Positions 1,948 through 14,663 of a stretch of 14,664 bases of DNA are shown here, one piece after another (the first letter of the stretch is position 1; every line of letters starts with the position of its first letter). Below the pieces are notes generated by a model. The model saw nothing but the letters and a program-made list of their open reading frames with translations, was not told the DNA's origin and did no database searches. The translations under genes were made by a program, and so were the position numbers. Origin of the DNA: Thiomonas sp. X19 (GTDB taxonomy: Bacteria; Pseudomonadota; Gammaproteobacteria; Burkholderiales; Burkholderiaceae_C); NCBI RefSeq assembly GCF_900089495.1, contig NZ_LT605203.1, forward strand, positions 2,634,675-2,649,338, written 5' to 3'.

Positions 1948-3386
1948 GACGTTTCTCGTGCACAATCTGGCTCCATCGAGGCTTCGATGGACGGACACGA
2001 TGGCGAGAACTCGCAAGGCGCTGGCGGCGCAGGTTGACGTGGCCCATCTGATCAGCGCGGGGGTGTTGGCCGGCGTGTGCCCGCGCGCCCTGATCGAGGA
2101 GGTGTTGGCGGACACCGGCAAGGCCAGCCAGCGCGAGCGCCGGCTGCCGGCGCCAGCGGTCGTGTACTACGTGATGGCGCTGGCGCTGTGGCGGGAGGCG
2201 CCCCTGGAGGAAGTGCTGCGCGTGGTGTGCGAAGGCCTGCAGTGGTTGGGCGGCGGCGAAGCGGGCGCGGTGCAGGCCAGCAAATCGGCGATCTCGCAGG
2301 CGCGCACCCGATTGGGCCCCGAGGTGATGCGTCGACTGGCCGAACGGGTGCTGCGGCCGCTGGCCGCGCAGGGAGCGCCGGGGGCCTGGTATCGGGGGTT
2401 TCGCGTCATGGCGCTGGATGGCAGTTGCCTGGACGTGGCGGATGAGGCGGCCAACGCCACGTTCTTTGGCTACCCCGGCGCCGCGCGTGGCGAGACCGCG
2501 TTCCCGCAGGCCCGGGTGCTGGGTCTGGTGGAATGCGGCACGCATGCGGTGGTGGCAGCCCGCCTGGCCCCCTACAGCCGCAGCGAACAGAGCCTGGCCG
2601 CCGAGCTGCTGCCCGCCCAGCTCACCGCGGACATGCTGGTGCTGGCTGACCGCAACTTCTACGGCTTCAAGCTCTGGCAGAGCGCCTGCGCCAGCGGCGC
2701 CAAGTTGGCGTGGCGGGTCAAGTCCAGCCTGGGGCTGCCGGTGCAGCAAGCGTTGCCCGATGGCTCCTATCTCAGCACGGTCTTTGACAGCGCGGACCGC
2801 GCGCGGTGCCCGGGGCAAACGGTGCGGGTGATCGACTACGCGCTGCAGGGCCTGGCCACGCCCGGGCAAGACCGCTACCGGCTGGTGACCAACCTCCTCG
2901 ATCCGCAGGCGGCCCCGGCCTTGGAGTTGGCGGCGCTGGACCACGAGCGCTGGGAGATCGAGGGCGTCTTCGACGAGTTCAAGACGCATCTGCGTGGCCA
3001 CAGCACGGTGCTGCGCAGCAAGACGCCGGAGTTGGTGCAGCAGGAGCTGTGGGGCTTGCTGCTGGCGCACTTCGCCGTGCGCCAGCTCATGGCGCAAGCC
3101 GCCTGGCCCCGAGGCCTCGACCCGGATCGCTTGAGCTTCACCCACGCCGTGCGCGTGATCAAGCGCAAGATGCCGCAAGCCGCAGCCGTTCCCCCCTGAG
3201 CGCCTGGCGGCGTGGCGCCATGCGCTGCTCGACGCGATCGCGCAGGGCCGCTGCGTCAGCAGTCGGGGGCGCTTCAACCCACGCGGTGTCAAGCGCAAGA
3301 TGAGCAACTTCAACGTCCGCCATCGCGGTGAGTTGCTCCACCAGAGGCATCAGCCCGTGCCGGTGCTTCGTATCTGAACAGTATTG
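1932..3386 (+). mobile_element. Complete IS4-family insertion sequence (1455 bp)
   Basis: The element is bounded by perfect 16-base inverted repeats and flanked by a perfect 10-base direct repeat; a target duplication of this size is normal for the IS4 family. It holds one transposase gene. The intact duplication shows insertion without later rearrangement at this site, so it is probably one of the younger events in the window. It landed next to the IS110 remnant (1553-1815), whose nearest recognisable homology ends about 100 bases away. Confidence 0.93.
2000..3199 (+). CDS. IS4-family transposase, C-terminus shifted out of frame at a C-run
   Basis: This DDE transposase moves the surrounding IS. 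An IS4-type N-terminal domain spans about residues 10-95 (from LISAGVLAGVCPRALIEEVL), followed by the DDE_Tnp_1 catalytic domain. The Asp residues lie in MALDGSCLDV and LVLADRNFYGF, and the Glu in RWEIEGVFDEFKTHLRG. I chose the ATG at 2000; the GTG at 1958 is in frame but adds an unconvincing leader. The frame ends at TGA 3197-3199, directly after six C residues (3191-3196). In the +1 frame it continues as ERLAAWRHALLDAIAQGR and then NPRGVKRKMSNFNVR to TGA 3375-3377 inside the right inverted repeat, which resembles the family's normal C-terminus. The full product would be about 458 residues. This is either a one-base insertion or a CCC-TGA type +1 frameshift site. Confidence 0.88.
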   Translation: MARTRKALAAQVDVAHLISAGVLAGVCPRALIEEVLADTGKASQRERRLPAPAVVYYVMALALWREAPLEEVLRVVCEGLQWLGGGEAGAVQASKSAISQARTRLGPEVMRRLAERVLRPLAAQGAPGAWYRGFRVMALDGSCLDVADEAANATFFGYPGAARGETAFPQARVLGLVECGTHAVVAARLAPYSRSEQSLAAELLPAQLTADMLVLADRNFYGFKLWQSACASGAKLAWRVKSSLGLPVQQALPDGSYLSTVFDSADRARCPGQTVRVIDYALQGLATPGQDRYRLVTNLLDPQAAPALELAALDHERWEIEGVFDEFKTHLRGHSTVLRSKTPELVQQELWGLLLAHFAVRQLMAQAAWPRGLDPDRLSFTHAVRVIKRKMPQAAAVPP

Positions 3387-5753: not shown

Positions 5754-6832
5754 ATGAATCGTAGGACTGGAGTCGGCGCGGGGCAAATCATCGGCACGAT
5801 GAATGGGCTGCGGGTCGTGGGCCTGGACATCGCCAAGCGGGTGTTTCAGTTGCATACGGTGGACATATGGCCACAGGAGAACTGAGCAACGTCCAGATCA
5901 AGCGCGGCAAGGTGCTGGAACACTTCGCCAACCATCGCCCGTGCCTGATCGGCATCGAAGCGTGCGGCGGCGCGCATCACTGGGCACGCGAGCTGCGCGT
6001 GCTTGGCCACGAGGTGCGCCTGCTGCACGCGCAGGCCGTGCGGCCGTTCGTCTCGGGCAACAAGACCGATGCCACCGATGCGCGGGCAATCTGGCTGGCC
6101 GTACAGCAGCCGGGCACGAAATTCGTGGGCATGAAGTCGCTGGCGCAGCAGGCCACGTTGACGCTGCACCGCCAGCGTGAGCTGCTGGTGAAGATGCGCA
6201 CCATGCAGCTCAACGCGCTGCGCGGGTTGCTCTATGAGTTCGGCGCAGTCTTCGCCAAAGGCAAGAAGGCGTTGCTGGGCGAGGTCGAGTCGGCGTTGGA
6301 TGCACTGAGGAACAAGCTGCCGCAGATGGTGGCCGACAGTCTGCGCGAGCAGGTGGCGCGCATCAAGGCGCTGAGCGAGGACATTGCCGCAATCGAGCAG
6401 CGGCTGAGCCTGCAACTGCGTGACGACCTGGACATGCGGCGCATTGCCGAGATCCCGGGCGTGGGCCTGCTGACAGCCACGGCAGCAATCGCCACAATGG
6501 GCCAGGCCAGCGCCTTCAGGTCAGCGCGCGAGTTCTGCGCTTGGTTGGGGCTGGTGCCGCGGCAGTGGGGCTCCGGCGGCAAGGTGCGTCTGCAGGGGAT
6601 TTCCAAGCGCGGCGACAGCTACCTGCGAACGTTGCTGGTGCATGGAGCGAGAGCGGTGCTTACACGCGCCAAAGAACCGGGGCCCTGGCTTGAGGCTCTG
6701 CGTGCACGGCGGCCAGCTAACGTCGTTGTCGTGGCGCAGGCGGCCAAGACGGCGCGAACGATCTGGGCCGTTACGGCCAGGCAGCAGGAGGATCAGAGGG
6801 GCTACCAGGGCGTGAGACCGCAATCGGCCTGA
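5754..6832 (+). pseudogene. IS110-family (IS1111-type) transposase, frameshifted near its N-terminus
   Basis: This is a DEDD recombinase that moves IS110-family elements. The ATG at 5754 has GGAGG 7 bases upstream. The first frame encodes MNGLRVVGLDIAKRVFQLHT with the first catalytic Asp, then stops at TGA 5883-5885. The main frame runs from about 5867 to 6832 and carries the remaining catalytic residues (LIGIEACGG, then NKTDATDARAI), a coiled middle (KSLAQQATLTLHRQRELL), and the C-terminal Transposase_20 domain (EIPGVGLLTATAAIATMG, then REFCAWLGLVPRQWGSGGK). The frames join if one AT is removed from GACATATGG at 5862-5870, restoring VDMATGE. The element is therefore probably inactive in cis. 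An efficient frameshift is less likely because no slippery run is present. Confidence 0.85.
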
Positions 6833-7173: not shown

Positions 7174-7205
7174 GGGCCCTTGCCGAATAAGCCGGAGAGA
7201 CAAGC

Positions 7206-7346
7206 ATGAGCGAGAGCAACACACAGCAGGGCGCGGCGCCGCCCATCGGTATTGCCGCCACGGGTATGCGCACCGAATCGGACTCGATGGGCCAGATCGA
7301 TGTGCCAGCGAATCGGTACTGGGGCGCGCAAACACAGCGCAGCCTA
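7206..7346 (+). pseudogene. fumC: Class II fumarase, N-terminal fragment
   Basis: Fumarase C interconverts fumarate and malate in the TCA cycle. The ATG at 7206 has GGAGAG 8 bases upstream. The 47 codons end ESDSMGQIDVPANRYWGAQT then QRSL, the conserved FumC N-terminus preceded by about 20 extra residues. An IS630 element enters at TA 7345-7346. The reading frame resumes exactly at 8541 when the element and one TA are removed. Confidence 0.9.
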
Positions 7347-8540: not shown

Positions 8541-8939
8541 GTGCACTTTTCCATCGGCGACGACCGCATGCCCAAGCGCGTCTACCACGCCTACGGCTAT
8601 GTCAAGAAGGCCGCGGCGCTGATGAACCTGGCAGCGGGGCGACTCGAGGCACGCCGCGCCAATGCCATCGTTCAAGCCGCAGACGAGGCCATCGCCGGAC
8701 TACTCGACACCGAGTTTCCGCTCTACGTCTGGCAGACGGGATCCGGCACGCAGTCGAACATGAACGTCAACGAGGTCTTGTCCAACCGCGCAACGCAGAT
8801 TTTGGGCGGAAGCATCGGCTCCAAGGACCCGGTGCATCCCAATGACCACGTCAATATGGGGCAGTCGCCCAACGACACGTTCCCGACAGCCATGCACATT
8901 ACCGGAGTCATGGCCATCGATGAAAACCTGATCCCTAAG
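8541..8939 (+). pseudogene. fumC: Class II fumarase, middle fragment cut by the unclassified element
   Basis: This continues the frame of 7206-7346. It contains [18 protein letters not shown], the substrate-site motif [20 protein letters not shown], and [20 protein letters not shown]. Homology ends after ENLIPK at about 8936-8939, where the next element begins. About 180 of the usual 460-470 residues remain, and the catalytic C-terminal two thirds is not found in the window. The protein cannot be functional. Confidence 0.9.
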
Positions 8940-8952
8940 CCGGCAGAGCCGG
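8940..8952 (+). repeat. Short hairpin at the left edge of the unclassified element
   Basis: CCGGC-AGA-GCCGG is a perfect 5-base stem with a 3-base loop, 8 bases inside the proposed left end. It could be a terminal recognition structure or chance in GC-rich DNA. Confidence 0.45.
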
Positions 8953-9009
8953 AACCAAACAGGGGAGTAGCCTCGCGCTCTGGCGAAGCACATTGAAGCG
9001 GAGGCCGCC

Positions 9010-10518
9010 ATGGATCTTCTGACGACGCGGTACGCGCAGAATCTGACGGGCGTGCTGTCGTGCTACGACCGCATCGTCATCACCGGCACGCTGCCCGGAG
9101 CCTGCTTTGCCGACGGCATGACGAGCTTTCTGTACTCGCGCGGCATCCGCATCTTCGACTATCCGCAGTTCGCGCTGCCGCTGCGTGAGCGTATCCGCGC
9201 CAACGCGCAGGCGCTGGCCGCCGAGCACGCCGCGACGATCGAACACATCGCCAAGGCCCACATCCGCAAGGAAGACGTGGTGGCCAAGGTGCTGGCCACG
9301 CGCGGCGATGCGCCGGGGCTGGTGCATGTGATCTCGGCCATGGAGGCCTGCGCGACCTACCAGCCCTGGCACGACAAGGCCAGCGGGCGCACCTTCTTGC
9401 GCCCCGACACCACCAAGTGCCTGCACTACTACTTCTACTGGATGGACCGCGAGCTCGGTCTGATCTACGTGCGCGTGCCCACCTACTGCCCGTTTCGGCT
9501 GCAGGTGTACTGCAACGGTCACAGTTGGCTGGCCAGACGGCTCATGCGCGAGGACATCGGCTTCGCGAGCGCCGACAACGCCTTCGTGCGCATCGACGAC
9601 TTCGCGCGCGCGCAGGCGCTTGCCGACACGCTCAAGCCCGAGTTGCTGCACCGTCACCTGGACCGCTATGCCCAGTTGTGCTGCCCGGCCCACGATGTAT
9701 TCGGGCAGGCCTATCACTGGAGCATCATGCAGGCCGAGTATTCGACCGATCTGGTGTTCAAGACCGAGCAACTCCTCAGGCCCCTGTACGAGCAGCTCTC
9801 GCGCGAGGCGGTGCTGTCGGTCAAGGCCGAGCAAGTCGCCACCTTCCTGGGCAAGAAGGTGACCCCGCAGTTGGCCGCCGAGATCGGCTCGCGGCTGAGC
9901 ACGCGCATCGAGGGCACCTGCATCAAACACAGGTTCGATTCCTGCCCGATCAAGATCTACGACAAGTTCGCCCGCATTCTGCGCATCGAGACCACCACCA
10001 ACGACGTCTCGTTCTTCAAGCACCACCGCAAGGTGGAACACCGAAGCGGTCGTGCCACGCGCGAGGTCGCGCCGCTGAAGAAGTCCATCTACAGCCTCAT
10101 CGACCTGCGCGAAATCCTGCTCGGCTGCAACCAGCGCTACCTCGAGTTCCTCTCCAGCCTGAACGACCATAGCGGCGGTCAACGCGCCCTCGAGCGCGTC
10201 ACCCATCCCAAGCCCGACGGCGACCGCTCCTTCAAGGGCCTGAACTTCTTCGATTCCCACGACCAAGCGCTGCTTCGCGCGGTGCAGCGACCAGAGTTCA
10301 ACATTCATGGTCTGGCCAGATGCGATCTCGCTCACCTGCTGCCCGACATGTCGGGCAGCAAGCTGTCGCGACAACTTCGCCGTTTGCGCGTACTCGGATT
10401 GCTCAAGCGCGCAGCAAACACGTACCGCTACTACCTCACTCGTGCTGGCCGATTGGCCACCGCAGCATTCGAACGCCTCACCACATTCGTCATCGTTCCC
10501 GCCATGGCAAATGCTTGA
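9010..10518 (+). CDS. Unrecognised 502-residue protein with C-terminal winged-helix-like domain
   Basis: The ATG at 9010 has GGAGG (9000-9004) 5 bases upstream. The frame is intact to TGA 10516-10518. There is no signal peptide or membrane segment. Recognisable blocks are NLTGVLSCYDRIVITGTLPG near the N-terminus, YYFYWMDRELGLIYVRVPTY around residues 140-160, and PIKIYDKFARILRIETTTND around residues 313-332. The C-terminus (about residues 430-490; DLAHLLPDMSGSKLSRQLRR, then LGLLKRAANTYRYYLTRAGR) looks like a winged helix-turn-helix, and similar proteins may be labelled MarR-like for that reason. No DDE, DEDD, HUH, serine or tyrosine recombinase motif is obvious. Its place in an insertion inside fumC suggests it is the mobility protein, but this is inference. 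The gene itself is certain; its function is unknown. Confidence 0.85.
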   Translation: MDLLTTRYAQNLTGVLSCYDRIVITGTLPGACFADGMTSFLYSRGIRIFDYPQFALPLRERIRANAQALAAEHAATIEHIAKAHIRKEDVVAKVLATRGDAPGLVHVISAMEACATYQPWHDKASGRTFLRPDTTKCLHYYFYWMDRELGLIYVRVPTYCPFRLQVYCNGHSWLARRLMREDIGFASADNAFVRIDDFARAQALADTLKPELLHRHLDRYAQLCCPAHDVFGQAYHWSIMQAEYSTDLVFKTEQLLRPLYEQLSREAVLSVKAEQVATFLGKKVTPQLAAEIGSRLSTRIEGTCIKHRFDSCPIKIYDKFARILRIETTTNDVSFFKHHRKVEHRSGRATREVAPLKKSIYSLIDLREILLGCNQRYLEFLSSLNDHSGGQRALERVTHPKPDGDRSFKGLNFFDSHDQALLRAVQRPEFNIHGLARCDLAHLLPDMSGSKLSRQLRRLRVLGLLKRAANTYRYYLTRAGRLATAAFERLTTFVIVPAMANA

Positions 10519-10539
10519 TTCACTCATCATCATTCAGTG

Positions 10540-10563
10540 CCAGTTTGCAGAACTTTGAACTGG
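10540..10563 (+). repeat. Hairpin after the 502-residue gene
   Basis: CCAGTT (10540-10545) and AACTGG (10558-10563) form a perfect 6-base stem around a 12-base loop, 22 bases after the stop codon. It lies 7 bases inside the proposed right end of the element. It could be a terminal structure of the element. It lacks the T-run of an intrinsic terminator. Confidence 0.45.
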
Positions 10564-10570
10564 TAAGGGA

Positions 10571-10595
10571 CTAATCAGACCGTCATCGCATGAGC
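10571..10595 (+). repeat. Probable left terminal repeat of IS1182 element B
   Basis: This segment is an imperfect inverse match to 12097-12119: about two thirds of positions agree with one gap. It begins CTAATCAGACCGTC and runs over the transposase ATG at 10590. The position is reasonable for the family, but the match is not strong. Confidence 0.4.
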
Positions 10596-11945
10596 CGCTT
10601 CATTGCCGTAGATCGAGACACTGCTTACCTGCTGCCGCCGTCGGTCAACGAATGGTTGCCGCAGAACCACCTGGCGCGCTTTGTCGTCGAAATCATCGAC
10701 CAGTTGGACCTGAGTGAGTTGGTTCGGCAATACGCGGGACGCGGCAGCCATGCCTACCACCCAGCGATGCTGCTGGGCTTGTTGGTCTACGGCTACGCCA
10801 CCGGGGTGCACTCCAGCCGCAAGATCGAGCGCGCCTGCCACGACTCGGTGGCGTTTCGCTTCATTGCCGCCAACACCCAGCCCGACCACGACAGCATCGC
10901 CACCTTCCGGCGGCGCTTCCTGCCGCAGATCGAGGCGCTGTTCGTGCAAGTGCTGGTGCTGGCGCGCGAGATGAAGTGCCTGAAGCTGGGCAACATCGCC
11001 CTGGACGGGACCAAGATCGCGGCCAATGCGAGCAAGCACAAGGCGCTGTCCTGGGAGCACGCCAACAGAATCGAGGCCCAGCTGCGCGAAGAAGTGCAGT
11101 TGCTGCTGAAGCTGGCCGAAGACAGCGACAGTCGCCCCGTCAATGACGGACTGGACGTGCCGGCAGAGATCGCACGACGCGAGAAGCGCCTGGCCGGCAT
11201 AGCGCAAGCCAAGACCAAGATCGAGCAGCGTGCGCGCGAGCGGCACGCCGTTGAGCAGCAGGAGTACGAGGCCAAGTGCGCCAAGCGCGATGCCCAGCGT
11301 GAGGCAGGCAAGAAGCCGCGTGGGGCGGACCCACAGCCCCCGTCGAGCGAGCCCAAGGCCGGTGACCAAGTCAACCTCACCGACGAAGAGTCGCGCATCA
11401 TGCCCACCTCGCGCGGGGGCTTCGAGCAAAGCTACAACGCCCAGGCCGCGGTCGATACCCAGACGATGCTGGTGGTGGCGCAGCACGTCTCGCAGGCGCC
11501 CAATGACAAGCGCGAAATTGCTCCGATACTGGATAGGGTTCAGGCACTTCCAGAGGTGCTCGGGCAGGTCAATGCGCTATTGGGCGACACGGGCTACTTC
11601 AGCGCGGCCAACGTCAACGCCTGCGCGGCGCAGGGAATCGAGCCCATGCTGTCGATGAAGCGCGAATCGCACCATATTGCGGTGCTCCAGCGCTTCGCTG
11701 CGGATGCGCCGGCCCCCGAAACCGACGATCCGGTGCTCAAGATGGCCCACCGGTTGGCGACAAAAAAAGGGCGGGCACTGTATGGACTGCGTAAGCAGAC
11801 GGTGGAGCCGGTGTTCGGGATCATCAAGCGCGTGATGGGCTGGAGCCAGATGAGCATGCGCGGACTGGACAAGGCGCGCGGCGAATGGTCGCTGGTGACG
11901 ATGTCTTGGAATATCAAGCGGCTGCACGTACTGCGGGCGGCGTAA
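10590..11945 (+). CDS. IS1182-family transposase, full length (451 residues)
   Basis: This DDE transposase moves IS1182-family elements. The N-terminal DUF772 domain begins MSRFIAVDRDTAYLLPPSVN and includes MLLGLLVYGYATGVHSSRKI. The first Asp lies in IALDGTKIAANAS. A charged, helical, probably coiled-coil insertion (about residues 155-250, with EIARREKRLAGIAQAKTKIE) precedes the DDE_Tnp_1_6 part, where the second Asp lies in LLGDTGYFSAANV and the Glu in VEPVFGIIKRVMGW. Length and motifs are normal, and the frame is intact. The ATG at 10590 lies only about 20 bases from the IS end and has no good ribosome-binding site (AAGGG at 10565 is too far), so translation may be weak. Confidence 0.93.
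   Translation: MSRFIAVDRDTAYLLPPSVNEWLPQNHLARFVVEIIDQLDLSELVRQYAGRGSHAYHPAMLLGLLVYGYATGVHSSRKIERACHDSVAFRFIAANTQPDHDSIATFRRRFLPQIEALFVQVLVLAREMKCLKLGNIALDGTKIAANASKHKALSWEHANRIEAQLREEVQLLLKLAEDSDSRPVNDGLDVPAEIARREKRLAGIAQAKTKIEQRARERHAVEQQEYEAKCAKRDAQREAGKKPRGADPQPPSSEPKAGDQVNLTDEESRIMPTSRGGFEQSYNAQAAVDTQTMLVVAQHVSQAPNDKREIAPILDRVQALPEVLGQVNALLGDTGYFSAANVNACAAQGIEPMLSMKRESHHIAVLQRFAADAPAPETDDPVLKMAHRLATKKGRALYGLRKQTVEPVFGIIKRVMGWSQMSMRGLDKARGEWSLVTMSWNIKRLHVLRAA

Positions 11946-14234: not shown

Positions 14235-14663
<429 letters not shown>

Follow-up and report, generated by a model that had tools for sequence, protein, structure and literature searches.

The window analysed here, a stretch of 14,664 nucleotides from Thiomonas sp. 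X19 (contig NZ_LT605203.1, positions 2,634,675 to 2,649,338 of the forward strand), carries a one-gene insertion sequence (IS) of 1,636 bp at positions 8937 to 10572 on the + strand. This element is probably moved by its own tyrosine nicking enzyme, a protein predicted to combine a Rep_trans-like domain of TATA-binding protein (TBP)-like fold with a MarR-like winged helix. In its predicted build it resembles the DNA-nicking initiators of replication known from some plasmids and filamentous phages. The mobility of the element is near certain, and a sequence-only reading that had proposed a new type of mobile element at this site is supported by sharp ends, unrelated flanks, empty sites and identical copies. 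We infer that the protein is the transposase, and a Rep_trans-like nicking mechanism is likely, as judged from the predicted fold, the conserved residues and the target core. It also seems probable that the element represents an undescribed transposase class, in which TBP-fold Rep_trans-like tyrosine nickases drive a very large and widespread IS family. No such transposase was described in the literature that we searched by title and start of abstract, a search that did not cover ISfinder or subscription papers.

The extent of the element was determined by comparison with the ends of its relatives. A total of 36 copies, including that in the window, were mapped at both ends, with sizes of 1595–1728 bp. 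The left end across loci mostly reads CCTAA[GC]CCGGnnnAGCCGGAACCAAA and the right end T[AT]AGnGACTA; in the window, the right-end motif TAAGGGACT^A lies at 10564 to 10573 (+ strand). Among 37 left junctions, the bases flanking the insertion, CCT at 8934 to 8936 (+) in the window, were C in 35, C in 36 and T in 35, and the next base was A in 35. At 42 right junctions, the element terminated in A (42), C (37, otherwise T) and T (41), followed by A in 42 of 42 and then mostly by a second A (34). These counts indicate that CTAA is common to the target and the element, and identify CCT^AA as the target. This common sequence leaves the cut ambiguous, so that 8938 to 10573 describes the element equally well. 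The edges of 8932 and 10570 given by the sequence-only reading had to be corrected. The right-end motif was taken from an alignment (A7) of 36 right ends, built without the doubtful locus L042, while the base counts leave out L082 and L083 (left flanks CCCA and CACA), both of which were kept in the left-end alignment (A6). The first search pattern for left ends missed L025, L039, L043, L044 and L046; L025 and L044 were recovered afterwards, and A6 omits L039 (stem mismatch), L043 and L046. Within 12 copies, no terminal inverted repeat clearly exceeded the level of shuffled sequences (between 26 and 300 of 300 shuffles scored as high), and no target duplication was detected in the 12 copies checked, its exact length being 0. 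The non-coding DNA inside the element amounts to 73 and 54 bases on the two sides of the gene.

The sequence-only reading had expected mobility to be visible in flanks compared across genomes, and such comparison gave conserved sharp boundaries at both ends, unrelated flanks and empty sites. Three copies in a Rhodocyclaceae genome do not differ over 1.62 kb, and their flanks diverge immediately on both sides. In a genome of the window's class (G247), five copies each measure 1,642 bp, and the DNA retrieved beyond a further, sixth left end encodes an identical protein as far as it extends. The copy of Paraburkholderia elongata sits within the end of an IS21-type element, uninterrupted versions of which are present on plasmids: when its flanks were joined, 8 of the best 30 plasmid records listed aligned unbroken (query position 2 to at least 337). 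Comparison of four of these empty sites showed 63–68 matches in 70 bases, with the native sequence AATTCCTAAC and, in one, AATTCCTAAA. A looser case was found in G247, where another joined junction matched at least 21 repeats of the same genome; one repeat, aligned base by base, was in register, with CCCTCCGAACC versus CCCTAAGAACC at the joined site. A third copy lies inside a run of CCCTATT repeats. Several mapped copies have broken reading frames, indicating that not all copies are live.

The gene (9010 to 10518, +) is an intact open reading frame (ORF) of 502 codons, preceded by a ribosome-binding site, GGAGG, at 9000 to 9004 (+), five bases ahead of the ATG, as the sequence-only reading had described. 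Based on an AlphaFold2 model (pLDDT 92.9), residues 1–388 (9010 to 10173, +) are predicted to form a catalytic domain of TBP-like fold, as in Rep_trans initiators. The C-terminal residues 390–502 (10177 to 10515, +) form a MarR/HxlR-like winged helix, in agreement with the winged helix noticed earlier. The first structural match of the domain model other than TBP itself was a Rep_trans rolling-circle initiator, suggesting a resemblance to the replication-initiator fold. The blocks that had looked conserved in the single sequence proved to be so in the family, with eight residues kept in 100 or 101 of 101 aligned relatives. D20 (9067 to 9069, +; 101/101) is a predicted metal ligand corresponding to D46 of RepDE. 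Q241-x-E243 (9730 to 9738, +; 101/101 and 100/101) is the counterpart of Rep_trans motif I (RxD; RepDE R140-x-D142), K315-x-Y317-x-K319 (9952 to 9966, +; 101, 100 and 101 of 101) that of motif III (RepDE R189-x-Y191-x-K193), with Y317 as the predicted nucleophile, and R325-x-E327 (9982 to 9990, +; both 101/101) that of motif IV (RepDE R212-x-E214). D20, E243 (E where Rep_trans has D), E327 and Y317 each lie on their own predicted strand, an arrangement that may correspond to that of Rep_trans, in which the metal residues D, D and E sit on separate strands around the tyrosine of YxK. The alignment A2 contained 94 rows, and A3 omitted the plasmid row and L058 and added P0121. The motif pattern was composed after viewing both families, and 64 family ORFs were removed from 751 ahead of the background count.

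The absence of a known transposase motif, claimed by the sequence-only reading, holds in that no DDE, DEDD, HUH or recombinase model was among the Pfam/NCBIfam matches of 15 members at the sequence level, but not in that a Rep_trans-like set of active-site residues is present. The best of these matches were weak helix-turn-helix (HTH) models, and all others had E-values of at least 0.05, including a single sub-threshold match of one member to Replic_Relax (E 0.097). Several results weigh against a close relation to Rep_trans. PF02486 (Rep_trans) was absent from the matches of the 15 members at E≤1, while control proteins were matched, and hhalign against seven Rep_trans proteins gave a probability below 1%. 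In Foldseek searches of solved structures, neither model gave an E-value below 0.001, the best for the domain being 2e-3, and the structural match scores were middling. Motif I carries Q in place of R (QxE, not RxD), the YxK is present without the E of the Rep_trans YxKxxE, and the presumed nick site lies outside the hairpin of the left end rather than in its loop. Since no profile links the family to Rep_trans, we call it Rep_trans-like and do not claim membership. Matches in a viral structure library, also searched with Foldseek, were weak and mostly unnamed.

In the mechanism that we propose, the hairpin at the left end and TAAGRGACT at the right would be recognized by the winged helix and the catalytic domain. 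At each end, Y317 would nick one strand at CT^AA, assisted by a metal that D20, E243 and E327 coordinate, and would remain linked to the 5′ phosphate. Joining of the two ends would then yield a single-strand circle, whose junction reads GACT^AAGCCGG (GACTAAGCCGG), and would restore CCT^AA in the donor. The circle could insert at another CCT^AA, where replication would render it double-stranded. The nicking, the choice of strand, the covalent link and the circle are the parts that we infer. When viral contigs were searched for the expected circle junction, a single match was obtained, attributable to chance.

The hairpin of the left end (8940 to 8952, +) consists of the stem CCGG/CCGG around the loop CAGAG, and CT^AA sits 3 nt outside it. 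In A6, which contains 33 left ends (31 distinct), 99.2% of the stem cells were paired, and three of the four pairs showed changes on both sides, with stem variants such as CTGG/CCAG, GCGG/CCGC and CCGA/TCGG. This number of pairs with two-sided changes was matched by 0 of 500 shuffles, and slid versions of the stem scored worse. The same alignment shows a conserved AACCAAACAGG adjoining the hairpin (8953 to 8963, +). At the right end, a search for a hairpin gave no consensus pair. The hairpin form itself is not proven by the covariation, because a double-stranded palindrome bound by a dimer would covary as well. The left palindrome could equally be the double-stranded site of a winged-helix dimer, as expected if the protein were a new site-specific recombinase acting on double strands. 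In that case, a double-stranded circle with a CTAA junction would recombine with a CCTAA target at a core common to both, and single strands would play no part. The CTAA common to the target and the element junction is what such a core would look like. We nevertheless regard this explanation as unlikely: the end bases may disagree within one copy (L004, L015, L024, L030 and L032), with CCTG, CCCA or TCTA on the left paired with ATTA, ACTA or ACCA on the right, even if mutation after insertion is possible, and the fold and the residue set resemble those of a single-strand nickase.

Further palindromic sequences were observed in these elements. In Brocadia copies (L025, L043, L044 and L046), the left end is followed, ahead of the gene, by a second left-hairpin region in inverted orientation. 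In the window, a perfect 24-bp palindrome (10337 to 10360) lies within the winged-helix part of the transposase gene; an Rfam match that stays below threshold overlaps with it on the opposite strand. The search for an RNA component gave one Rfam match only, far under its gathering score.

The gene is single-copy in its own genome, and its homologues are numerous: at least 7,651 of 7,999 scored candidates had E≤0.001, and searches from two more distant relatives gave at least 7,892 of 8,000 and at least 7,960 of 8,000. Each of the three lists reached approximately 8,000 scored candidates, and the lists may overlap. The hosts, as labelled and including many metagenome bins, are Proteobacteria, Brocadia, Bacteroidota and Verrucomicrobia and, more distantly, Actinobacteria. 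The occurrence is patchy: with the own genome counted, the family was found in 9 of the 274 class genomes and in 10 of the 398 phylum genomes. Approximately nine-tenths of the 120 matches listed had no contig longer than 5 kb, and many were on contigs under 2 kb, a pattern of collapsed repeats. None of these 120 matches was named a transposase; the names listed for relatives are hypothetical protein or MarR/ArsR regulator, and surveys of IS elements by family models would therefore probably miss them. On a Mycobacterium riyadhense plasmid (L074, 2947 to 6367), two adjacent coding sequences with approximately 26% identity to the family lie beside IS4 genes, and the repeat between them looks different; the ends of the actinobacterial branch may be of another type.

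An integrated rolling-circle mini-plasmid, with the protein as its replication initiator and copies spreading as replicons that integrate at CCTAA, is a less likely explanation still. It would fit the hairpin near the presumed nick, and archaeal Rep-Arvir initiators with the same layout of a TBP-like domain and a MarR-like winged helix are reported in PMC13107129. However, the 36 copies share their ends and, at 1595–1728 bp, have no space for a second gene; there were 0 matches in 50,697 phage records, and the matches in plasmids came from 13 records, all of them replicons of at least 199 kb. Least probable is that the protein is a regulator or passenger of an element mobilized in trans by another transposase, as the MarR or ArsR family labels of some relatives and the regulator-type winged helix might suggest, given that the mapped elements hold space for this gene alone, the invariant residue set lies in the non-HTH domain and no transposase family model matches the protein.

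Miniature or non-autonomous copies were sought with the left-end motif, which gave 11 sites in 5 of 369 genomes, while a reversed control of the pattern gave no match. Six of these sites were inspected: L166 lacks the gene and consists of a left end only, and the left end of L169 is parted from its gene by another insertion, whose ends begin GGGTCTTCGTG. We accordingly claim no miniature element. A strand bias of insertion was considered, as all six left ends of G247 are on the + strand. The GC skew of 20 sampled pieces was too noisy to place replichores, the three copies of CAJQTY01 are in mixed orientation, and no such bias is claimed.

In the window, the element stands at a break in fumC. 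The gene has two such breaks: an IS630-type element lies between 7346 and 8541, and the present element at CCT^AAG. The 5′ part (7175 to 7345, +) and the middle part (8542 to 8939, +) show 86.7% and 86.9% identity, respectively, to the fumC locus of a same-genus relative (L098). The alignment ends at 8939, which bears out the abrupt stop of fumC homology noticed earlier, and its last three bases, AAG, are compatible with fumC and the element end alike. In the two closest same-genus relatives, fumC is unbroken through CCC-AAG, and a third has CCC-AGC, compared with CCT-AAG in the window. The earlier claim of an insertion in fumC holds for the left flank; the right flank (10574 to 11945, +) is instead an IS1182-type element, represented by 16 nt of its leader and by its ORF. 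Its left end is apparently missing, as the sequence shared by relatives with 76% identity in the same genome begins 84 nt upstream of the ATG. A search of the window did not recover the 3′ half of fumC, and a genome search gave only a paralogue with 67% identity. The locus may have arisen by recombination, for instance of two copies of the element, or may have lost adjacent DNA. The window is dense in ISs, with an IS1182 fragment (12 to 591), IS4 (1958 to 3199), IS110 (5867 to 6832), the IS630-type element inside fumC, named from its sequence, and the IS1182-type element (10590 to 11945). An IS1182-type element 76% related to the latter has at least 36 full-length copies in the same genome (G000, contig C3), among at least 40 matches in all. 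At 14250 to 14663 (− strand) lies what we take to be the C-terminal part of a protein resembling mercuric reductase.

Among known systems, Rep_trans initiators (PF02486; pT181-family Rep, RepSTK1) share with the family the TBP-like fold, as judged from the model, the order of the residues D, xxE/D, [RK]xYxK and RxE, and a CT'AA-type core. They differ in lacking sequence or profile similarity to it, in having R where motif I of the family has Q, and in serving plasmids rather than a mobile element, and the family adds the C-terminal MarR-like winged helix. MOBT relaxases (NicK, Orf20, RelSt3) nick at CT'AA, the core found at both element ends and the target, where the cut is presumed to fall, and do so with a GC-rich hairpin. 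Rep_trans-type catalysis is expected of both, but MOBT relaxases start conjugation, and the family has no Pfam Rep_trans match. They carry an N-terminal HTH, and their nic site is in the hairpin loop, according to PMC9371924. The nic site of Rep_trans and MOBT enzymes differs from the presumed nick of the family, which is beside the hairpin. Rep-Arvir proteins (DUF7845) have a TBP-like catalytic domain and, after it, a MarR-like winged helix, and their relation to Rep_trans is visible in structure only, according to PMC13107129. Unlike the family, they replicate archaeal viruses and plasmids, and DUF7845 was absent from the Pfam matches of the 15 members.

The family resembles IS200/IS605 elements (HUH Y1) in several respects: a hairpin is subterminal, terminal inverted repeats and target duplication are both absent, and a short target of fixed sequence precedes the left end on its 5′ side. 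It differs from them in having no HUH match, a two-domain protein of 502 residues and no consensus hairpin at the right end. DDE insertion sequences are unlike the family, which is without terminal inverted repeats and target duplication. The protein had no match to an IS110 model, although the IS110 of the window was detected, and the long non-coding RNA region expected of IS110/IS1111 contrasts with the short non-coding DNA of the present element. IS91/ISCR and Helitrons (HUH Y2) also lack inverted repeats and target duplication, according to PMC5714925. A rolling-circle style is likewise expected of the family, which differs in the absence of an HUH match, in the hairpin at the 5′ end of the gene and in its target. 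A short fixed target without duplication could interest genome engineers. Known transposase chemistries comprise DDE, HUH, tyrosine and serine recombinases, DEDD and Cas1. If our interpretation is true, a TBP-fold nickase would be an additional one and a second, independent invention of single-strand transposition, and Rep_trans-type enzymes would serve replication, conjugation and transposition, in parallel with HUH enzymes.
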